33,595 nucleotides of DNA from a bacterium (GTDB lineage Bacteria > Pseudomonadota > Gammaproteobacteria > GCA-002705445 > GCA-002716945), in assembly GCA_029979505.1 (NCBI GenBank), contig JAPOHH010000010.1, forward strand, positions 1 to 33,595. The letters run 5' to 3'. A model generated the notes under the pieces. The model was given only the letters and a program-made list of their open reading frames with translations, was not told the DNA's origin and searched no databases. How positions within the stretch are numbered: position 1 is the stretch's first letter; each line of letters starts with the position of its first letter. Position numbers and translations under genes: made by a program. Of this stretch, positions 5,728-22,023 are shown piece by piece.

Positions 5728-6796
5728 ACAAAATATTGTAATATTTCCTGGTGATGAAATTGGACCTGAAATAACAACTGAAGCAATAAAGATTATTGAT
5801 TTTTTAAACGAATCTAAATTGACTAACATTTCATATGAATTTGCTGATATTGGTGGAGCTGCACTAGATAAATATAATTCTCCAATTAGTACAGATGATT
5901 TGGAGAAAGCAAAAAATTCGGATGCTGTTTTATTAGCATCAGTGGGCACACCCAAATATGATAATAATGTACGGGATCAAAAACCAGAATATGGCCTATT
6001 AACTTTAAGAAAGCATCTTAATTTATACATTAATATTAGACCAATATTTGTATTTAATTCATTGTCTAGCTATTCTTCATTGAAGCCAGAACTTATTAAT
6101 GATCTTGATATTGTCATTATTAGAGAATTGATTGGCGATGTATATTTTGGTGAACCTAGAGGTTTTAAAGATATAGGCGGTGATCGTATTGGTTATAATA
6201 CAATGCTGTATTCTGAATCTGAAGTCAAACGCATCACTCAGTTTGGAATCGAAACAGCAAATAAAAGAAAAAAACAAATAACGTCTGTCGATAAAGCTAA
6301 TGTTCTTGAATGTTCACAATTGTGGAGACAAACTGTTGATCGTATGATGAGTCAACATCCAGACATTAACCTTCAACATATGTATGTAGATAACGCTGCA
6401 ATGCAAATTATAAAAAATCCAAAACAGTTTGATGTAATTTTAACACCAAATCTATTTGGTGATATTTTATCTGATGCTGCTTCAATGTTAACAGGCTCGA
6501 TTGGACTATTGCCTTCTGCATCCTTATCTGATTCTGTGGGAATGTTTGAGCCTATACATGGTTCCGCTCCAGATATAGCTGGTCAAGGGATTGTAAATCC
6601 GCTAGCAATGATACTATCCTTGGCAATGATGTTTGAGTATACTCTTCAAAAACCTGAAATATCAAAAATGATCAAACAGGCTGTAGATGACGTTTTGAAT
6701 GAAGGCTATTTCACTAAAGATTTATCTTCAAATGATTTTGTTACTACATCACAGATGGGCGATAAAGTATTGTATAAATTAAAAAAATTATGTTAA
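5720..6796 (+). CDS. leuB: 3-isopropylmalate dehydrogenase
   Basis: LeuB oxidatively decarboxylates 3-isopropylmalate with NAD+ and a divalent metal, giving 2-oxoisocaproate. Conserved parts are 'PGDEIGPEI' near the N-terminus, 'PEYGLLTLRKHLNLYINIRP' (substrate-binding Arg residues), 'NLFGDILSDAASMLTGSIG' (metal-binding Asp residues) and 'EPIHGSAPDIAGQGIVNP' (NAD site). I use the ATG at 5720 (358 aa); an in-frame TTG at 5714 would add two residues. It overlaps leuD by 8 nt and asd by 7 nt. Confidence 0.96.
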   Translation: MNKQNIVIFPGDEIGPEITTEAIKIIDFLNESKLTNISYEFADIGGAALDKYNSPISTDDLEKAKNSDAVLLASVGTPKYDNNVRDQKPEYGLLTLRKHLNLYINIRPIFVFNSLSSYSSLKPELINDLDIVIIRELIGDVYFGEPRGFKDIGGDRIGYNTMLYSESEVKRITQFGIETANKRKKQITSVDKANVLECSQLWRQTVDRMMSQHPDINLQHMYVDNAAMQIIKNPKQFDVILTPNLFGDILSDAASMLTGSIGLLPSASLSDSVGMFEPIHGSAPDIAGQGIVNPLAMILSLAMMFEYTLQKPEISKMIKQAVDDVLNEGYFTKDLSSNDFVTTSQMGDKVLYKLKKLC

Positions 6797-14095: not shown

Positions 14096-14489
14096 AGTAC
14101 TATTATTTTTAGCTTTATTAATATATATATTTTCTAGTTCTTTTATGAACATGTCAGAATTTAATCAAGATATCTATTCCAAAGAAATTTTAAAAGAAAT
14201 TACAATTGATAAGAAAGAAATTGATGTTTTTGAAAATAAATCTTTAGAGGATATTAATGTAACTCAAAAGAAAGTTAAGGCATGGATTATAATCATAGGT
14301 TATGAAAAGGAGTCTCAGAAAAAAATAATATCTAAATTAAATAACAGCGGTTATTCAACTAAACACAACGCAAAGAAAATGTATTATTCATTAGGCCCAT
14401 TCGTTGACTCTTCTCATGCAAAAGAAGAATCTAAGAAATTAAAAAATATACATGGTATTAATAACAAAATTATTGACTTTATTTTCTAA
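14085..14489 (+). CDS. Small SPOR-domain membrane protein (DedD-like)
   Basis: This 134-residue protein sits where dedD lies in other gammaproteobacteria (folC-dedD-cvpA-purF). It has one N-terminal membrane anchor (about residues 3-20), a short linker, and a C-terminal ~70 residues starting 'KAWIIIIGYEKESQKKIISKL' that fit the SPOR pattern (beta-alpha-beta, with a 'YYSLGPFVDSSHAKEESKKL' repeat). SPOR domains bind glycan strands lacking stem peptides at the division septum. It is shorter than E. coli DedD (220), mainly because the linker is reduced. The match is weak at residue level, so gene order carries much of the assignment. I use the ATG at 14085; TTG at 14073 is the alternative. Confidence 0.7.
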   Translation: MRFKVLLFLALLIYIFSSSFMNMSEFNQDIYSKEILKEITIDKKEIDVFENKSLEDINVTQKKVKAWIIIIGYEKESQKKIISKLNNSGYSTKHNAKKMYYSLGPFVDSSHAKEESKKLKNIHGINNKIIDFIF

Positions 14490-14968
14490 TGTTAATTATT
14501 GATTATATTTTTATTTTTATTACAGTTTTATATTCGGTATTAGGATATATAAAAGGTTTCTCTAAACAGCTTATCTCGGTCTCTGTTTGGTTAATATCTC
14601 TTTATATTCTATTCAATTATTTACCTAATATAAAAGATATAGTTTATTCATATATTCAATTAGATGATATTTACATAAGAGTTATTTCTATTTCTTTATT
14701 AATAATATCGTCTATTACTTTAATTTTTGTTTTGCATTTAACTTTAGCAAAGATTATAGCTTCTATATTATTCGAAAACTCTAACCGTATTCTCGGTTTT
14801 GTTGTGTCATTAATAAAATCCCAAATATATATTCTTATATTTATTCTCTTGATATACGATACAACGATAGCTAGTCATATTATAAATGACTCTGTATTTA
14901 TGCCATATTATATTAATTTTTTTGAATATATCTCTAATTTTGATGATTCTCTCTTTAATACTTTCTAA
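14489..14968 (+). CDS. cvpA: CvpA-family inner-membrane protein
   Basis: CvpA homologues are four-helix inner-membrane proteins needed for colicin V production in E. coli plasmid systems and implicated in envelope tolerance to bile salts. Here 159 residues contain four hydrophobic segments at about 3-22, 28-45, 63-90 and 101-124. The N-terminal 'IDYIFIFITVLYSVLGYIKGFSKQLISV' matches the family's 'D..I..I...S...G...G...E' start. Position directly before purF is the classic arrangement. It overlaps the SPOR gene by 1 nt (TAATG). Confidence 0.85.
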   Translation: MLIIDYIFIFITVLYSVLGYIKGFSKQLISVSVWLISLYILFNYLPNIKDIVYSYIQLDDIYIRVISISLLIISSITLIFVLHLTLAKIIASILFENSNRILGFVVSLIKSQIYILIFILLIYDTTIASHIINDSVFMPYYINFFEYISNFDDSLFNTF

Positions 14969-16523: not shown

Positions 16524-16985
16524 ATGATTTTTATAAATACATCAAAACAAAAACTATATTTACTTGAAAAAAATACAATTAAATGTGATTTTAATGTGTC
16601 CACTGCTTTAAAAGGAACAGGCTGCAAAATTAATTCAAATAAAACTCCTATCGGTCTCCATACAGTTGTCTCAAAAATTGGAGACGGATTACCCCCAGGA
16701 ACGTTATTCCAAAACCGAGTTTCAACAAATAAAATAATTCATAAAAATCCTAAAGATAAAAAAGATTATATTACCTCTAGAATTATAAGACTTGGCGGAT
16801 TAGAGGAAGGTATAAATAAAGGTGGAGACGTCGATACTTTTGATAGATTTATATATATACATGGCACACCGCATATTGATAAGTTAGGACATCCTGAATC
16901 TCATGGATGCATTAGAATGAGTGATTATGATGTGATATATCTATTCAAGCTGGTAAATTGCAAGATGCTTGTATTGATTTATTAG
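16524..16985 (+). CDS. YkuD-family L,D-transpeptidase/carboxypeptidase without signal peptide
   Basis: YkuD-fold enzymes act on the L-D bond of peptidoglycan tetrapeptides through a Cys nucleophile. The motif is complete: His113-Gly114 in 'IYIHGTPH' and Ser126-His127-Gly128-Cys129-Ile130-Arg131-Met132 in 'ESHGCIRMS'. The protein is a bare 153-residue catalytic domain, starting 'MIFINTSKQKLYLLE', with no signal peptide, lipobox or membrane helix. It may therefore be cytosolic. Signal-less YkuD proteins such as Acinetobacter ElsL act as cytosolic L,D-carboxypeptidases in muropeptide recycling; that role is an inference here. It lies 22 nt after purF and converges with a HAD phosphatase, the stop codons overlapping. 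Confidence 0.85.
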   Translation: MIFINTSKQKLYLLEKNTIKCDFNVSTALKGTGCKINSNKTPIGLHTVVSKIGDGLPPGTLFQNRVSTNKIIHKNPKDKKDYITSRIIRLGGLEEGINKGGDVDTFDRFIYIHGTPHIDKLGHPESHGCIRMSDYDVIYLFKLVNCKMLVLIY

Positions 16986-17647
16986 AAACAATCTTTTATT
17001 TCTAACGGGTCCTTAATAATTAAATCAGCGTTCCATGATGAGATATTAATGTCATCATTAATAAATCCAAAATCTGCTGCAACTGTTTGCATTCCTGCAT
17101 CGCGGCCAGCAATGATATCTCTCTCGTCATCGCCAACATAAACAATTTCATCAGATTCACACTTTATAGATTCTGCCGCTTTAATTAGACCATCTATCGC
17201 TGGTTTTGCATTTAATACCATATCACCAGTTATTACACAGCTTAATTTATCATTTAGACCAAGCCCATCAATAATATTTGTTACATATCTGGAATGCTTA
17301 TTTGTAACCACGCCAACCAGGATATCTTTCTCTAATAAATAATCAATTAATTTATCCATATTATTATTAAGCTTTGTATCAACAAATACATTATGTTTGT
17401 AGTCCTCCAAAAACTCTGCTCTAAGCAATGATGAATCTATATTTCTTTGATTGATTTCGGATGCATGCTCAATTACACCTAGTGCACCACGAGATATATG
17501 TTTTTTTAGCTTGAAACAGTCAACCGTTTTAAAGTTATGCTCCTTAAGTACTCTGTTTAAAGAAGCACACATATCTGGCGATGTATCAGCAAGAGTACCA
17601 TCTAAATCGAATAAAATTGATTTTATTTTATGTGTATTTTTGAGCAT
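16982..17647 (-). CDS. gph: HAD phosphatase of the Gph/MupP group
   Basis: This is a haloacid-dehalogenase phosphatase with motif I 'LFDLDGTLADTSPD' (Asp14, Asp16), motif II 'VGVVTNKH', motif III Lys in 'NAKPAIDG' and motif IV 'YVGDDERDIIAGRDAG'. The family includes phosphoglycolate phosphatase (Gph) and MupP, the N-acetylmuramate-6-phosphate phosphatase of Pseudomonas peptidoglycan recycling. MupP sits next to ubiG in Pseudomonas, as this gene does, so MupP is plausible; sequence alone does not decide. I use the ATG at 17647 (221 aa), which overlaps ubiG by 20 nt. Starting further upstream would add residues that do not fit the HAD N-terminus. Confidence 0.88.
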   Translation of the reverse strand: MLKNTHKIKSILFDLDGTLADTSPDMCASLNRVLKEHNFKTVDCFKLKKHISRGALGVIEHASEINQRNIDSSLLRAEFLEDYKHNVFVDTKLNNNMDKLIDYLLEKDILVGVVTNKHSRYVTNIIDGLGLNDKLSCVITGDMVLNAKPAIDGLIKAAESIKCESDEIVYVGDDERDIIAGRDAGMQTVAADFGFINDDINISSWNADLIIKDPLEIKDCF

Positions 17648-18320
17648 ATAAGAAATAATTAATATCTGTATTTTTTGATAAAGAAAATGATTCATCTAAA
17701 GGATTAAAATCTAATCCATCTATATTTTTAATTTTGAAATTATGGCTTTCCAATAATGATGTAACCTCATATGGTGTTATGAATTTTGAATATTGATGCG
17801 TTCCTTTTGGAACATAATTTAGTATATATTCAGCTACAATTTTCGCTAAAAGGAAAGACTTAAGATTTCTATTTATAGTCGATAGAAATAATTTAGAATC
17901 CTTTTTAGTTATTTCGTCGATTTTCTTAATCAACATATTAGGATCATTAATATGTTCAATCATTTCAAAGCAGACTACATAATCAAAGCTCATAGTACTT
18001 GCTAAATCAAATATAGATTCATTTTTATATTCGATATCAAGGCTTTGTTCTTTAGCATGTTGTCTAGCTATTGATATCGATTTCTTAGATGAATCAATTC
18101 CTGTAACATTAGCGCCTTTTTTGCAGAGCTCTTCACATAAGAGTCCACCTCCACACCCTATGTCTAAGATATTTTTTCCACTAAGACTACATTTGGACAA
18201 TATATATTCAGACCTAATCGGATTTAATTTATGTAATAACTTATAATGCCCAGACTTATTCCACCAATCATATGCATATTCGTTAAAATGAGATTCTTGA
18301 TTTTCTTCTTTTTTTTTCAT
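17628..18320 (-). CDS. ubiG: Ubiquinone biosynthesis O-methyltransferase
   Basis: UbiG performs both O-methylations of the ubiquinone ring. The start 'HFNEYAYDWWNKSGHYKLLHKLNPIR' is the UbiG signature (E. coli: FxxxAxxWWdpxGxfkpLHxiNPlR). The SAM-binding motif is 'ILDIGCGGGLLCEELCKKGANVTGID' (about residues 51-76), with 'VVCFEMIEHI' and 'STINRN' following. Length 230 is near E. coli (240). It implies a ubiquinone-based respiratory chain. It overlaps the upstream amidohydrolase-like gene by 4 nt and the HAD phosphatase by 20 nt. Confidence 0.96.
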   Translation of the reverse strand: MKKKEENQESHFNEYAYDWWNKSGHYKLLHKLNPIRSEYILSKCSLSGKNILDIGCGGGLLCEELCKKGANVTGIDSSKKSISIARQHAKEQSLDIEYKNESIFDLASTMSFDYVVCFEMIEHINDPNMLIKKIDEITKKDSKLFLSTINRNLKSFLLAKIVAEYILNYVPKGTHQYSKFITPYEVTSLLESHNFKIKNIDGLDFNPLDESFSLSKNTDINYFLYAQKYT

Positions 18321-19396
18321 TTTATATCCATTTTCTTACCAGATGACCATACATGAGTTAAGCTTTCCTTGTCAAGGTTACAAATATTTAGGTTAATATC
18401 ACTATTTTCAATAAAATGCGATTTCTTATAATTGAACAGATTAAATGAAGCCTGGTTACCTTTTTTTATACATCCAGATGATAAGTAATTTGAGAATAGA
18501 TTAGAGGTATTAGTAGTAACACAATCCATTATTTTATTTATAGTATTAATATTTGTACTGTTACCCATTACAGCATTTATAAGGTTGATTACCTTATAAA
18601 ACTGATATGATTCACAGTCATTAGAGACTAATACACACCTGAATTTTTTTTCTAGTAGTGATATAAAATATTTTAATTTCTCTATATCACTAATCTCTTT
18701 ATATGAAATCATTAAAGTTGAATTATTTCTTTTAACACATAACAACCATTCTTTGCTAAAGCTTGAAAAGCCATGAAAGTGACAATTATTTATAAGATTT
18801 ATGTCTTCCCAATATTCGATATAACCATTTATTTCTTTTTTGTCAGTCATATTTTTAAGTTCATCTAAGTTAATGTGTAAATTAATATTTAATTCATTTG
18901 TTATTGATGAAATCTTTTTTATAAATTCATTTTTAAAGCTACAAATATTCTTTAAGCTAATACTTAATGACTTAGTCGGATCTGATTTAAAACTATCAAG
19001 TAAAGATGTAATATTATTTATATCTAATTGGCTAATAACTTTTCCATCTAATTCTAAAACTTGTCCAAGTTCTAGATGACCATCAAAATTATATTTTATA
19101 GTATTGTTATTATCAGTTAAGAGATTTACTCTCGTAACACCATATCTTAATAATTTATTTAGTTTAATATCTAAATGATCAGTACCAATACAGTCATCTG
19201 TATTAATGTAACTTTCTGTCAAAGACGGCATAAGTACATGATCAGAATATTCAATTATTCTCAGATTTGTATATTTTTTTTCGATACTAGCTTTGTCAAT
19301 GACCTCCCTAATTACTGATTGATCAATTAGCAATGCTTTTTCTTTTTCAAACTTTTTGTTATTTAGATAAATCCATTTTGGTGAAATTATAAACAT
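18317..19396 (-). CDS. Degenerate TRZ/ATZ-type amidohydrolase-fold protein
   Basis: In Pseudomonas the gene between gyrA and ubiG encodes a TRZ/ATZ-family deaminase (5'-methylthioadenosine/S-adenosylhomocysteine deaminase-like). This 359-residue protein keeps the layout: an N-terminal beta part, 'HVLMPSLTESYINT' where homologues have PGLxNxHxH, 'INLHINLDELK' where they have HxHxxET, and 'NNCHFHGFS' where they have AHCVHL. The metal-binding histidines are replaced (Tyr63 and Asn65 for HxH, Asn in the third and fourth ligand sites); an Asp remains in 'VSNDCES'. It is also shorter than usual (about 440). The frame is intact and the gene overlaps ubiG, so it is probably expressed but not a conventional deaminase. 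Family assignment relies on alignment by eye plus gene order. Confidence 0.65.
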   Translation of the reverse strand: MFIISPKWIYLNNKKFEKEKALLIDQSVIREVIDKASIEKKYTNLRIIEYSDHVLMPSLTESYINTDDCIGTDHLDIKLNKLLRYGVTRVNLLTDNNNTIKYNFDGHLELGQVLELDGKVISQLDINNITSLLDSFKSDPTKSLSISLKNICSFKNEFIKKISSITNELNINLHINLDELKNMTDKKEINGYIEYWEDINLINNCHFHGFSSFSKEWLLCVKRNNSTLMISYKEISDIEKLKYFISLLEKKFRCVLVSNDCESYQFYKVINLINAVMGNSTNINTINKIMDCVTTNTSNLFSNYLSSGCIKKGNQASFNLFNYKKSHFIENSDINLNICNLDKESLTHVWSSGKKMDIK

Positions 19397-19494: not shown

Positions 19495-22023
19495 ATGTCT
19501 GAATATTCACAAATTAAGCTCGATGACGAGATGCGTCATTCATACATAGAATATGCTATGTCTGTAATAGTAGGAAGAGCTTTGCCTGATGTGCGAGATG
19601 GCTTGAAACCAGTACATAGAAGAGTTCTATTCTCAATGCATGAGTTAAATAATGGCTATAATAAGGCTTATAAAAAATCAGCTAGAATTGTTGGTGATGT
19701 AATTGGTAAATATCATCCTCATGGAGATACAGCTGTATACGATACAATCGTAAGACTTGCTCAACCGTTTTCAATGCGCTATCCGTTAGTAGATGGACAA
19801 GGTAACTTTGGTTCTATTGATGGCGACTCACCAGCAGCTATGAGATATACCGAAGTAAGGATGTCACGTCTATCTCATGAACTTCTCTCAGACATTGATA
19901 AAAACACTGTAGACTTTAACCCCAACTATGATGGTTCTGAAAATGAACCAACAGTATTACCCACAAGAATACCTAATTTATTAATAAATGGTGCATCCGG
20001 TATAGCTGTTGGTATGGCAACAAATATCCCACCTCATAATTTAAATGAAGTAATTGATGGAGTAATAGCCATTATAAAAAACCCATCTCTTGCAAATGAT
20101 GAGTTTGTAGATGATTTTATAAGAGAAACTGGTTTCAGTGGACCGGATTTTCCAACAGGAGCTGAGATAAAAGATAATGGTGGAATTTATCAAGCGATTA
20201 AAACAGGAAGAGGCTCATTTAAAATTAGAGCTATTCATTCTGTAGAAGAAAAGCAAGATAAAAATTCTATCATCATTCACGAATTGCCATATCAAGTTAA
20301 TAAAGCAAAGTTAATTGAAAATATTGCATTATTAGTAAGAGATAAAAAAATTTCAGGTATCAATCATCTACGTGATGAATCAGATAGAGATGGATTAAGA
20401 ATTGTTATAGAGCTTAAGAAAGGTGAGCAACCAGATGTAATTTTGAGCAGCTTGTATAAGCAGACTAATCTTCAGACTTCTTTTTCTGTAAATATGGTTT
20501 GTCTTGTAGATGGAGAACCATGCACAATAAGTATTCCTTCTGCTCTATCTGAATTTATTAAACATCGAAGAGAGGTGATTACAAGGAGAACTCTTTACCA
20601 ATTAAACAAAACGTATAGCAAAGCACATATTCTTGAAGGTTTAAGCATAGCCTTAAACAATATTGATGAAATAATAAATCTTATAAAAAAATCTAAATCT
20701 AGTAATGATGCAAAAAAACAAATAACTAATAAAGCATGGTCAACATCTAAAAATAAATGGATATTATCTAAACTTATAAATGATTGTAAAGATTATATGA
20801 CAGTCGATACGGCTGTTGGATTAGTTGGAGATAAATACACAATAAGCGATGAGCAAGCACAAGCAATTTTAGACATGAAACTTAATAAGCTTACTAATCT
20901 AGAACAAGACGCTGTAATTCAGGACTATAACGATTCTATCAAATCAATTAAAGAATACCTGAGTATATTATCTAATCCTGATGAGTTGAATAGTTTAATG
21001 ATAAATGAACTTTTAGAAATCAAAGATTCTTATGGGCAGACTAGAAGATCTAAGATATCTGATGATGAAGGACTTCTAAATAGAGAGGACATGATAAAAA
21101 AAGAGGATGTTATCGTTGTTCTTACAGAGGCAAATTATGTAAAAAGAATGCCTGTCACAGAGTTTAGAAGTCAGAAACGTGGTGGTCGCGGTGTAAATGC
21201 TGCTAATTTTAAAGAAGGAGATAAGGCAAAGCTATTAGTATGTGCACATACACATGATACAATCTTGTGTTTTTCTACAAAAGGTAAAGCATTCTCCATA
21301 AGAGTATTTGATATTCCTGATACAAGTAGACAAGCAAGAGGTAAGTCAATAAATAATATACTTCCACTTGAATCAGATGAATCAATATCAGCTATTTTGG
21401 CAGTCAAAAACTTTGAAGAGGATAGTTATCTATTTTTAACAACAAGGGATGGAATGGTAAATAGAATTTCTTTATCATCATTTAAGAAAGTTCGAAACAG
21501 TGGTCTAAAAGCAATTCTATTGAAAGATGATGATTATTTATTTAATGCATTGCATACAAGCGGCACTGATAGAATCATACTTTCATCATCAATGGGTAAG
21601 TCAATTATGTTTCATGAGTCTCAGATTAGAGAAAGATCTAGAGGCACACAAGGCGTTGTAGGAATTAAGCTAAATAATGACGCTAAAATAATCTCTTCAC
21701 TTAATATTATGTCCGAGCAGGTGATTTTTGTAACTGAAAATGGCTATGGGAATAAGATTTCTGTTGATTCTTATAATGAACAAAATAGAGGTGGTCAGGG
21801 TGTTATATCTATAAAAACATCAAAGAGAAATGGATTTGTGGTTGGTGCTGTTAATGTTAACAATAATGATTATATAATTCTAATAACGAATAAAGGTAAG
21901 ACAATTAAAATATCAGCTTCTGACATGAAGACTATCAATAGAAATACTCAGGGCGTTCGTTTGCAAGATATGACTGATGATGAGAAAATAACAGCGGTTT
22001 CATTTGAACGTACAAGTGATTAG
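19495..22023 (+). CDS. gyrA: DNA gyrase subunit A
   Basis: GyrA cuts and rejoins DNA in the A2B2 gyrase that introduces negative supercoils. The catalytic Tyr118 is in '[11 protein letters not shown]'. The quinolone-resistance region reads '[11 protein letters not shown]', with Thr79 at the place of E. coli Ser83 and Asp83 at Asp87; Thr occurs naturally in Pseudomonas. The C-terminal beta-pinwheel starts with a GyrA box 'QKRGGRG' (canonical QRRGGKG), which marks it as GyrA rather than ParC, and 'RGGQGV' and 'NTQGVRLQ' blade motifs follow. Length 842 compares with 875 in E. coli; the acidic C-terminal tail is short. First gene of an 11-gene plus-strand run. Confidence 0.97.

Follow-up and report, generated by a model that had tools for sequence, protein, structure and literature searches.

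A putative pseudoenzyme descended from the MTA/SAH deaminase MtaD between ubiG and gyrA in a gammaproteobacterial order

The window, a stretch of 33,595 nucleotides that forms one contig of a 917-kb genome in 15 contigs, carries between ubiG and gyrA a gene (positions 18317–19396, hereafter gene X) whose product is, on balance, probably a non-catalytic pseudoenzyme of the amidohydrolase fold. Sequence comparison suggests that it was retired from the deaminase MtaD and that its fold has been kept under selection. The protein combines what characterizes an amidohydrolase pseudoenzyme: the metal ligands are lost, and the predicted fold and purifying selection are retained. Below, g1 denotes the genus of the window, and g2 and g6 are other genera of the order. 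The order is a small one with streamlined genomes; as sampled, it consists of one family of 25 genomes, and the relatives are of marine origin, sequenced as single-cell genomes and MAGs.

Locus, ancestry and predicted fold

The genes of the slot are located in the window as follows:

16982–17695, minus strand: HAD phosphatase, mupP/gph-like, next in the slot (best NCBIfam match MupP, 159.8 bits, below its cut-off of 359)
17628–18320, minus strand: ubiG (TIGR01983, 252 bits, cut-off 103), overlapping gene X by 4 nt
18317–19396, minus strand: gene X, putative non-catalytic MtaD-descended amidohydrolase-fold protein of 359 aa (intact frame; family by transitive profiles; fold search of models)
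19495–22023, plus strand: gyrA (NF004043, 1114.8 bits), divergent from gene X over 98 bp

The frame of gene X runs unbroken from 19396 to 18317 (359 codons, TGA stop), and its overlap with ubiG reads ATGA. An earlier note on this DNA had described the place between ubiG and gyrA, the intact frame and the 4-nt overlap; all three are confirmed, and the order mupP-ubiG-X-gyrA is conserved. The open frame is not due to chance because neutral redraws almost never stay stop-free (0 of 1000 simulated copies at 0.25 changes per site or more, 0.4% at 0.1 per site). A scan of 191 bases around the gap between gyrA and gene X detected no sigma-70-like promoter. The wider surroundings are ordinary, with purF upstream and pheA, hisC, a prephenate dehydrogenase gene, aroA and cmk past gyrA. 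Two short frames of the window (16524–16985 and 14489–14968) have no NCBIfam match at E 1e-40. On contig C7 of G000, L157:821-1396 encodes a nucleosidase-like protein of 192 aa, which scores best against a "nucleosidase" model (91.5 bits, below its cut-off); the frame after it, judged by eye, resembles a radical-SAM protein.

The homology of the window protein itself is weak, and its relatives were therefore needed for the assignment to a family. It scores 13.5 bits against Pfam Amidohydro_1 (cut-off 25 bits), alongside three unrelated weak Pfam rows, and a PDB sequence search with it returned nothing relevant. Scores against the TRZ/ATZ hydrolase model NF006549 step down from 208–262 bits in g2 through about 78–111 in g6 to 18–23 in the window protein, where the match covers N-terminal residues 3–61 only. 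The curated cut-off of this model, 540 bits, is passed by none of the 25 order genomes (best 262 bits) versus 195 of the 276 genomes sampled across the class. Profile–profile comparison supplies a chain: the g1 profile reaches active MtaD directly at E 9.5e-4 only, while it matches g2 at E 2.5e-20, and g2 matches active MtaD at E 9.1e-64 over 419 columns.

The slot points the same way. Five of 11 outgroup stretches have mupP-ubiG-mtaD with a divergent gyrA close by, three have mupP-ubiG-mtaD with gyrA outside the stretch, in two, from small genomes, mtaD directly adjoins gyrA, and in the last mtaD and ubiG are several kb apart. Judged by position and the profile chain, gene X is orthologous to MtaD, the MTA/SAH deaminase of gammaproteobacteria, and belongs to that family by common descent, so the amidohydrolase-fold call made earlier from the window protein is borne out through the profiles of its relatives.

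The structural models are weak. AlphaFold2 with eight sequences gave a mean pLDDT of 55.9 for the window protein and of 60.2 (pTM 0.59) for the relative L119. The L119 model displays the eight barrel strands in order, with a pLDDT per block of 64–95 over residues 61–260 and below 50 in the sandwich part. Foldseek ranked a guanine deaminase and three MtaD chains at the top for the window protein model. VIA-align of the L119 model gave Z 14–15 to triazine hydrolases and guanine deaminases, Z 13–15 to many members, and Z 14.2/14.0 to P. aeruginosa MtaD (PDB 4dyk/4gbd; 294–296 residues, rmsd 5.2/5.1 Å). The comparison with MtaD structures that had been proposed as a check was made with the L119 model, in which the ligand places lie on strand ends; the predicted fold is that of an amidohydrolase, a (beta/alpha)8 barrel plus a sandwich.

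The former metal site

Active members of the family carry H, H, H, E, H and D at six places (HHHEHD) in all 41 outgroup loci (38 genomes), a sample that was not chosen by an HxH pattern but favours intact sites since 30 of the loci are the best-scoring matches in the class; two 0.9–1.0 Mb genomes are among those with the full set. Which of the six places bind metal we assume from solved relatives. The corresponding codons of gene X are as follows:

19202–19210, minus strand: Tyr63-Ile64-Asn65, place of the beta-1 HxH metal motif
18869–18871, minus strand: Asn176, place of the beta-5 ligand histidine (profile alignment to g2, strand ends)
18860–18862, minus strand: Glu179, place of the catalytic glutamate of HxxE, retained
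18773–18775, minus strand: His208, place of the beta-6 histidine, retained
18620–18622, minus strand: Asn259, place of the beta-8 ligand aspartate (profile alignment to g2, strand ends)

The residues were mapped by profile alignment to g2, in agreement with the barrel strand ends of the L119 model; for g1, a MAFFT alignment assigns the beta-6 and beta-8 places differently and was not followed there. All four metal ligands of an MTA/SAH deaminase (HxH, His and Asp) are replaced in the window protein, by Tyr63, Asn65, Asn176 and Asn259. The earlier note was right about the lost site and the HxH substitution and half right about the two remaining histidines, both of which it read as Asn: that of beta-5 is Asn176, but that of beta-6 aligns to His208 and is present.

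The relatives do not keep the beta-1 histidine pair either, as none of the 20 full-length order copies has both. The second alone is kept in G020 and the first alone in G013, and in G015 the first is kept and the second is unreadable. The six places of the eight intact g1 copies read YNNEHN in G000, CKSDYN in G008, YNKCHE in G001 and G002, YNHEHD in G004 and G007, and YDHEHD in G003 and G005. In that order of listing, the beta-5 place is N/S/K/K/H/H/H/H and the beta-8 place N/N/E/E/D/D/D/D, and the beta-6 His is kept in seven of the eight. Among the seven g2 copies, Gly stands at the beta-8 place throughout and Asn mostly at the beta-6 place; g6 is variable. Each of the six residues survives in some copy of the order, but no copy holds all six. 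Because the losses differ between lineages, the site was probably intact in the ancestor of the order and inactivated more than once; this is the simplest reading of the sequences, to which regain may be an alternative.

Selection, deletion and a probable change of phosphorylase

A homologue of gene X occupies the slot in 21 of the 25 order genomes (profile match), including all eight other g1 genomes (35–63% identity). Of these 21 surviving copies, 20 are open over their full length, and the eight in g1 measure 358–360 aa. The exception, in G006 (a MAG record; L121, about 6440–6540), is frameshifted at an A-rich run between intact neighbouring genes, possibly by real decay or by sequencing error. 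Gene X is absent from G010, G011, G012 and G019, where the ubiG and gyrA matches lie about 184–229 bp apart and leave no room for it. On the gyrA tree these four losses map to no fewer than three separate positions, perhaps four (support is 63 for the clade in which G019 groups with the other g6 genomes to the exclusion of G012). Since four of 25 genomes lack the gene, its role is dispensable in some lineages. The earlier note had argued that a dead enzyme kept in a compact genome suggests a role for it; retention in place in 21 genomes agrees with this argument, and the four deletions weaken it. G019 carries two full gyrA copies, on contigs C2 and C12; by the C12 copy only 45 ubiG residues match, with a stop, and the pair may reflect duplication or mixed assembly. 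Viral contigs searched with the active and dead alignments contained no relatives. A family profile search of ten class genomes that are small or gave weak NF006549 matches found no dead copy in another order (one of the ten matched, weakly).

Codon models give an omega of 0.122 for the eight g1 copies (lnL −6308.5 versus −6603.8 at omega 1, a cost of 295 units), 0.054 for g2 (seven copies) and 0.075 for g6 (four of five copies), with omega 1 rejected by 412 and 228 lnL units in the latter two; all of these values are rough because synonymous change is near saturation on deep branches. In the close pair G001/G002, 26 changes are replacements and 21 are silent, which gives a dN/dS of 0.276 (Fisher P 3.4e-5 versus equal rates). 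These models and the alignments exclude the broken G006 copy; the g6 profile and codon model also exclude the G015 copy (L035), which has ambiguous residues, and the gyrA and pheA models exclude G003, where the genes lie on another contig. The proposed dN/dS check reveals purifying selection in three genera; a frameshift, named beforehand as a sign of decay, occurs in the single G006 copy.

The constraint is unevenly distributed. With barrel and sandwich boundaries set by hand and 21 of 28 outgroup sequences chosen by their HxH pattern, mean pairwise identity in the barrel and the sandwich is 71.6% and 58.6% in active MtaD versus 46.0% and 56.4% in g1, where invariant positions make up 14% of the barrel and 29% of the sandwich. 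Both parts are conserved nearly equally in g2 and g6. The reversed order in g1 suggests that the dead protein is constrained away from its former pocket.

A candidate cause for the loss of chemistry lies in methionine salvage. In P. aeruginosa, MTA is deaminated and the resulting methylthioinosine is then phosphorolysed, as stated in part of the source (PMC6302742). The sampled gammaproteobacteria with an intact MtaD would process MTA in the same manner, through MtaD and then methylthioinosine phosphorylase. Two phosphorylase models were compared across the 25 order genomes and 22 outgroup genomes, 47 in total. The methylthioinosine phosphorylase model scores 365–400 bits, above the MTAP model and above its cut-off of 223, in 20 of the 22 outgroup genomes; the remaining two, both of about 1 Mb, match both models weakly. 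All 21 order genomes with a phosphorylase match score higher to MTAP (250–316) than to the methylthioinosine model (175–232); 13 of them pass the MTAP cut-off, and four also pass the lower inosine-type cut-off. The phosphorylase of the window genome scores 268 bits to TIGR01694 (cut-off 275) and 343 to another MTAP model. In G180 and G273 (0.9–1.0 Mb; L163, L164), an intact MtaD site is found beside gyrA, and a good inosine-type phosphorylase is lacking.

An MTA phosphorylase cleaves MTA directly and makes a deaminase unnecessary. The difference in gene content suggests that this pathway swap was the likely trigger for the loss of MtaD chemistry, a reading in which the enzyme specificities, the cause and the direction are all inferred. 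The swap is not the full story because four genomes, the g1 sisters G003, G005 (92% complete) and G006 together with G012, match neither phosphorylase model; MTA may be recycled there by a different route or may go unrecycled. Under the preferred explanation, an enzyme of the MTA phosphorylase type would have made MtaD chemistry redundant in the order, and the metal ligands would then have been lost in lineage-specific ways. The protein would not have been discarded, and its predicted barrel and its sandwich, formed by the N- and C-terminal parts, would have been kept. The likeliest reason for retention would be a non-catalytic job performed through the sandwich and the outer surface, for example that of a subunit or of an interaction partner, and gene X would have been lost again where that job became dispensable. 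The lost metal site, the retained fold and the purifying selection agree with the reading in the earlier note; the binding or structural role proposed there is, in any specific form, inference. A broader version, in which the order turned a methionine-salvage enzyme non-catalytic several times in parallel after the swap and the sandwich is a conserved interaction module, perhaps a side function of the active enzyme, is a tentative possibility.

Slow decay, in which the gene lost its purpose when the MTA phosphorylase arrived and has since been eroded or deleted without any new function, is unlikely but deserves the most attention among the alternatives. It would explain the deletions in several parts of the gyrA tree, the G006 frameshift and the scattered, lineage-specific ligand losses, as well as the fact that gene X evolves fastest of the five g1 genes compared (omega is 0.055 for ubiG, 0.037 for mupP, 0.024 for pheA and 0.015 for gyrA). 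However, decay does not predict full-length open frames in almost all surviving copies, the near-constant size of those in g1, omega values well under 1 in each of the three genera or the excess of silent change between G001 and G002.

We consider it distinctly improbable that gene X encodes an enzyme with an altered site, using either one-metal chemistry like that of E. coli NagA or metal-independent chemistry on the remaining Glu and His, with the beta-5 His and beta-8 Asp in one subclade. Loss of HxH is by itself not sufficient proof of a dead enzyme: part of one source (PMC6016474) describes NagA of E. coli and V. cholerae as having QxN at the HxH place and a single metal, which shows that such enzymes can be active. 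Judged by strand position, G003, G004, G005 and G007 keep the beta-5 His, the Glu, the beta-6 His and the beta-8 Asp, and all eight g1 copies share an invariant Asp117 at the end of beta-3 and an invariant Cys69 after beta-1. The one-metal set of NagA-type enzymes, which we take to be a Glu on beta-4, a His on each of beta-5 and beta-6 and an Asp on beta-8, all conserved, is nevertheless missing: the end of beta-4 has Asn150 and neither Glu nor Lys, the retained beta-5 and beta-8 residues vary within g1, and the barrel is the less conserved part there.

That the frame is kept only for translational coupling to ubiG is very improbable, for although the ATGA overlap recurs in several relatives, it is lost in its exact form in G008, G001, G002 and G007, coupling would preserve a stop-free frame and not the amino-acid sequence that the low omega reflects, and ubiG persists in the four genomes without gene X. 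The presence of ubiG in all 25 genomes also argues against gene X as an obligate UbiG subunit; since ubiG is moreover the ancestral neighbour of active mtaD, the overlap loses its value as a sign of partnership.

Comparison with known amidohydrolases

The gene X protein is closest to MtaD (PDB 4gbd/4dyk, 4f0r; NF006549), with which it shares the slot by ubiG and gyrA, homology through the profile chain and the predicted fold. Unlike MtaD, it has all four metal ligands replaced, falls far under the family cut-off and is ~80 residues shorter, without most of the beta-1/beta-2 loop and the C-terminal tail. E. coli-type NagA resembles it as an amidohydrolase with a replaced HxH (QxN, in the part of PMC6016474 cited above), but NagA is active with one metal, whereas the window protein lacks the beta-5 and beta-8 ligands too.

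Pseudoenzymes of the amidohydrolase fold are a known kind, of which the gene X protein would be a new member. Literature on amidohydrolase pseudoenzymes and on pseudoenzymes of streamlined marine bacteria yielded nothing on this protein. Pseudoenzymes have mostly been studied singly; here, active relatives stand beside variously inactivated and deleted copies in one clade with a candidate cause, so that one can test directly whether a non-catalytic function of the shell predates the loss of chemistry. G180 and G273, equally small genomes with an intact MtaD site, are a useful contrast. The best-described parallel is the pseudo-dihydroorotase (pDHO) of P. aeruginosa aspartate transcarbamoylase, which, according to part of the source (PMC7053772), is inactive yet needed for the activity of the transcarbamoylase; a related fungal pseudo-domain described there has no zinc ligands. 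By analogy and not by membership, the gene X protein appears akin in kind to pDHO as an inactive amidohydrolase-fold protein kept for a non-catalytic purpose, but pDHO has a proven partner that requires it, while the gene X protein belongs to another subfamily and is deleted in some genomes.
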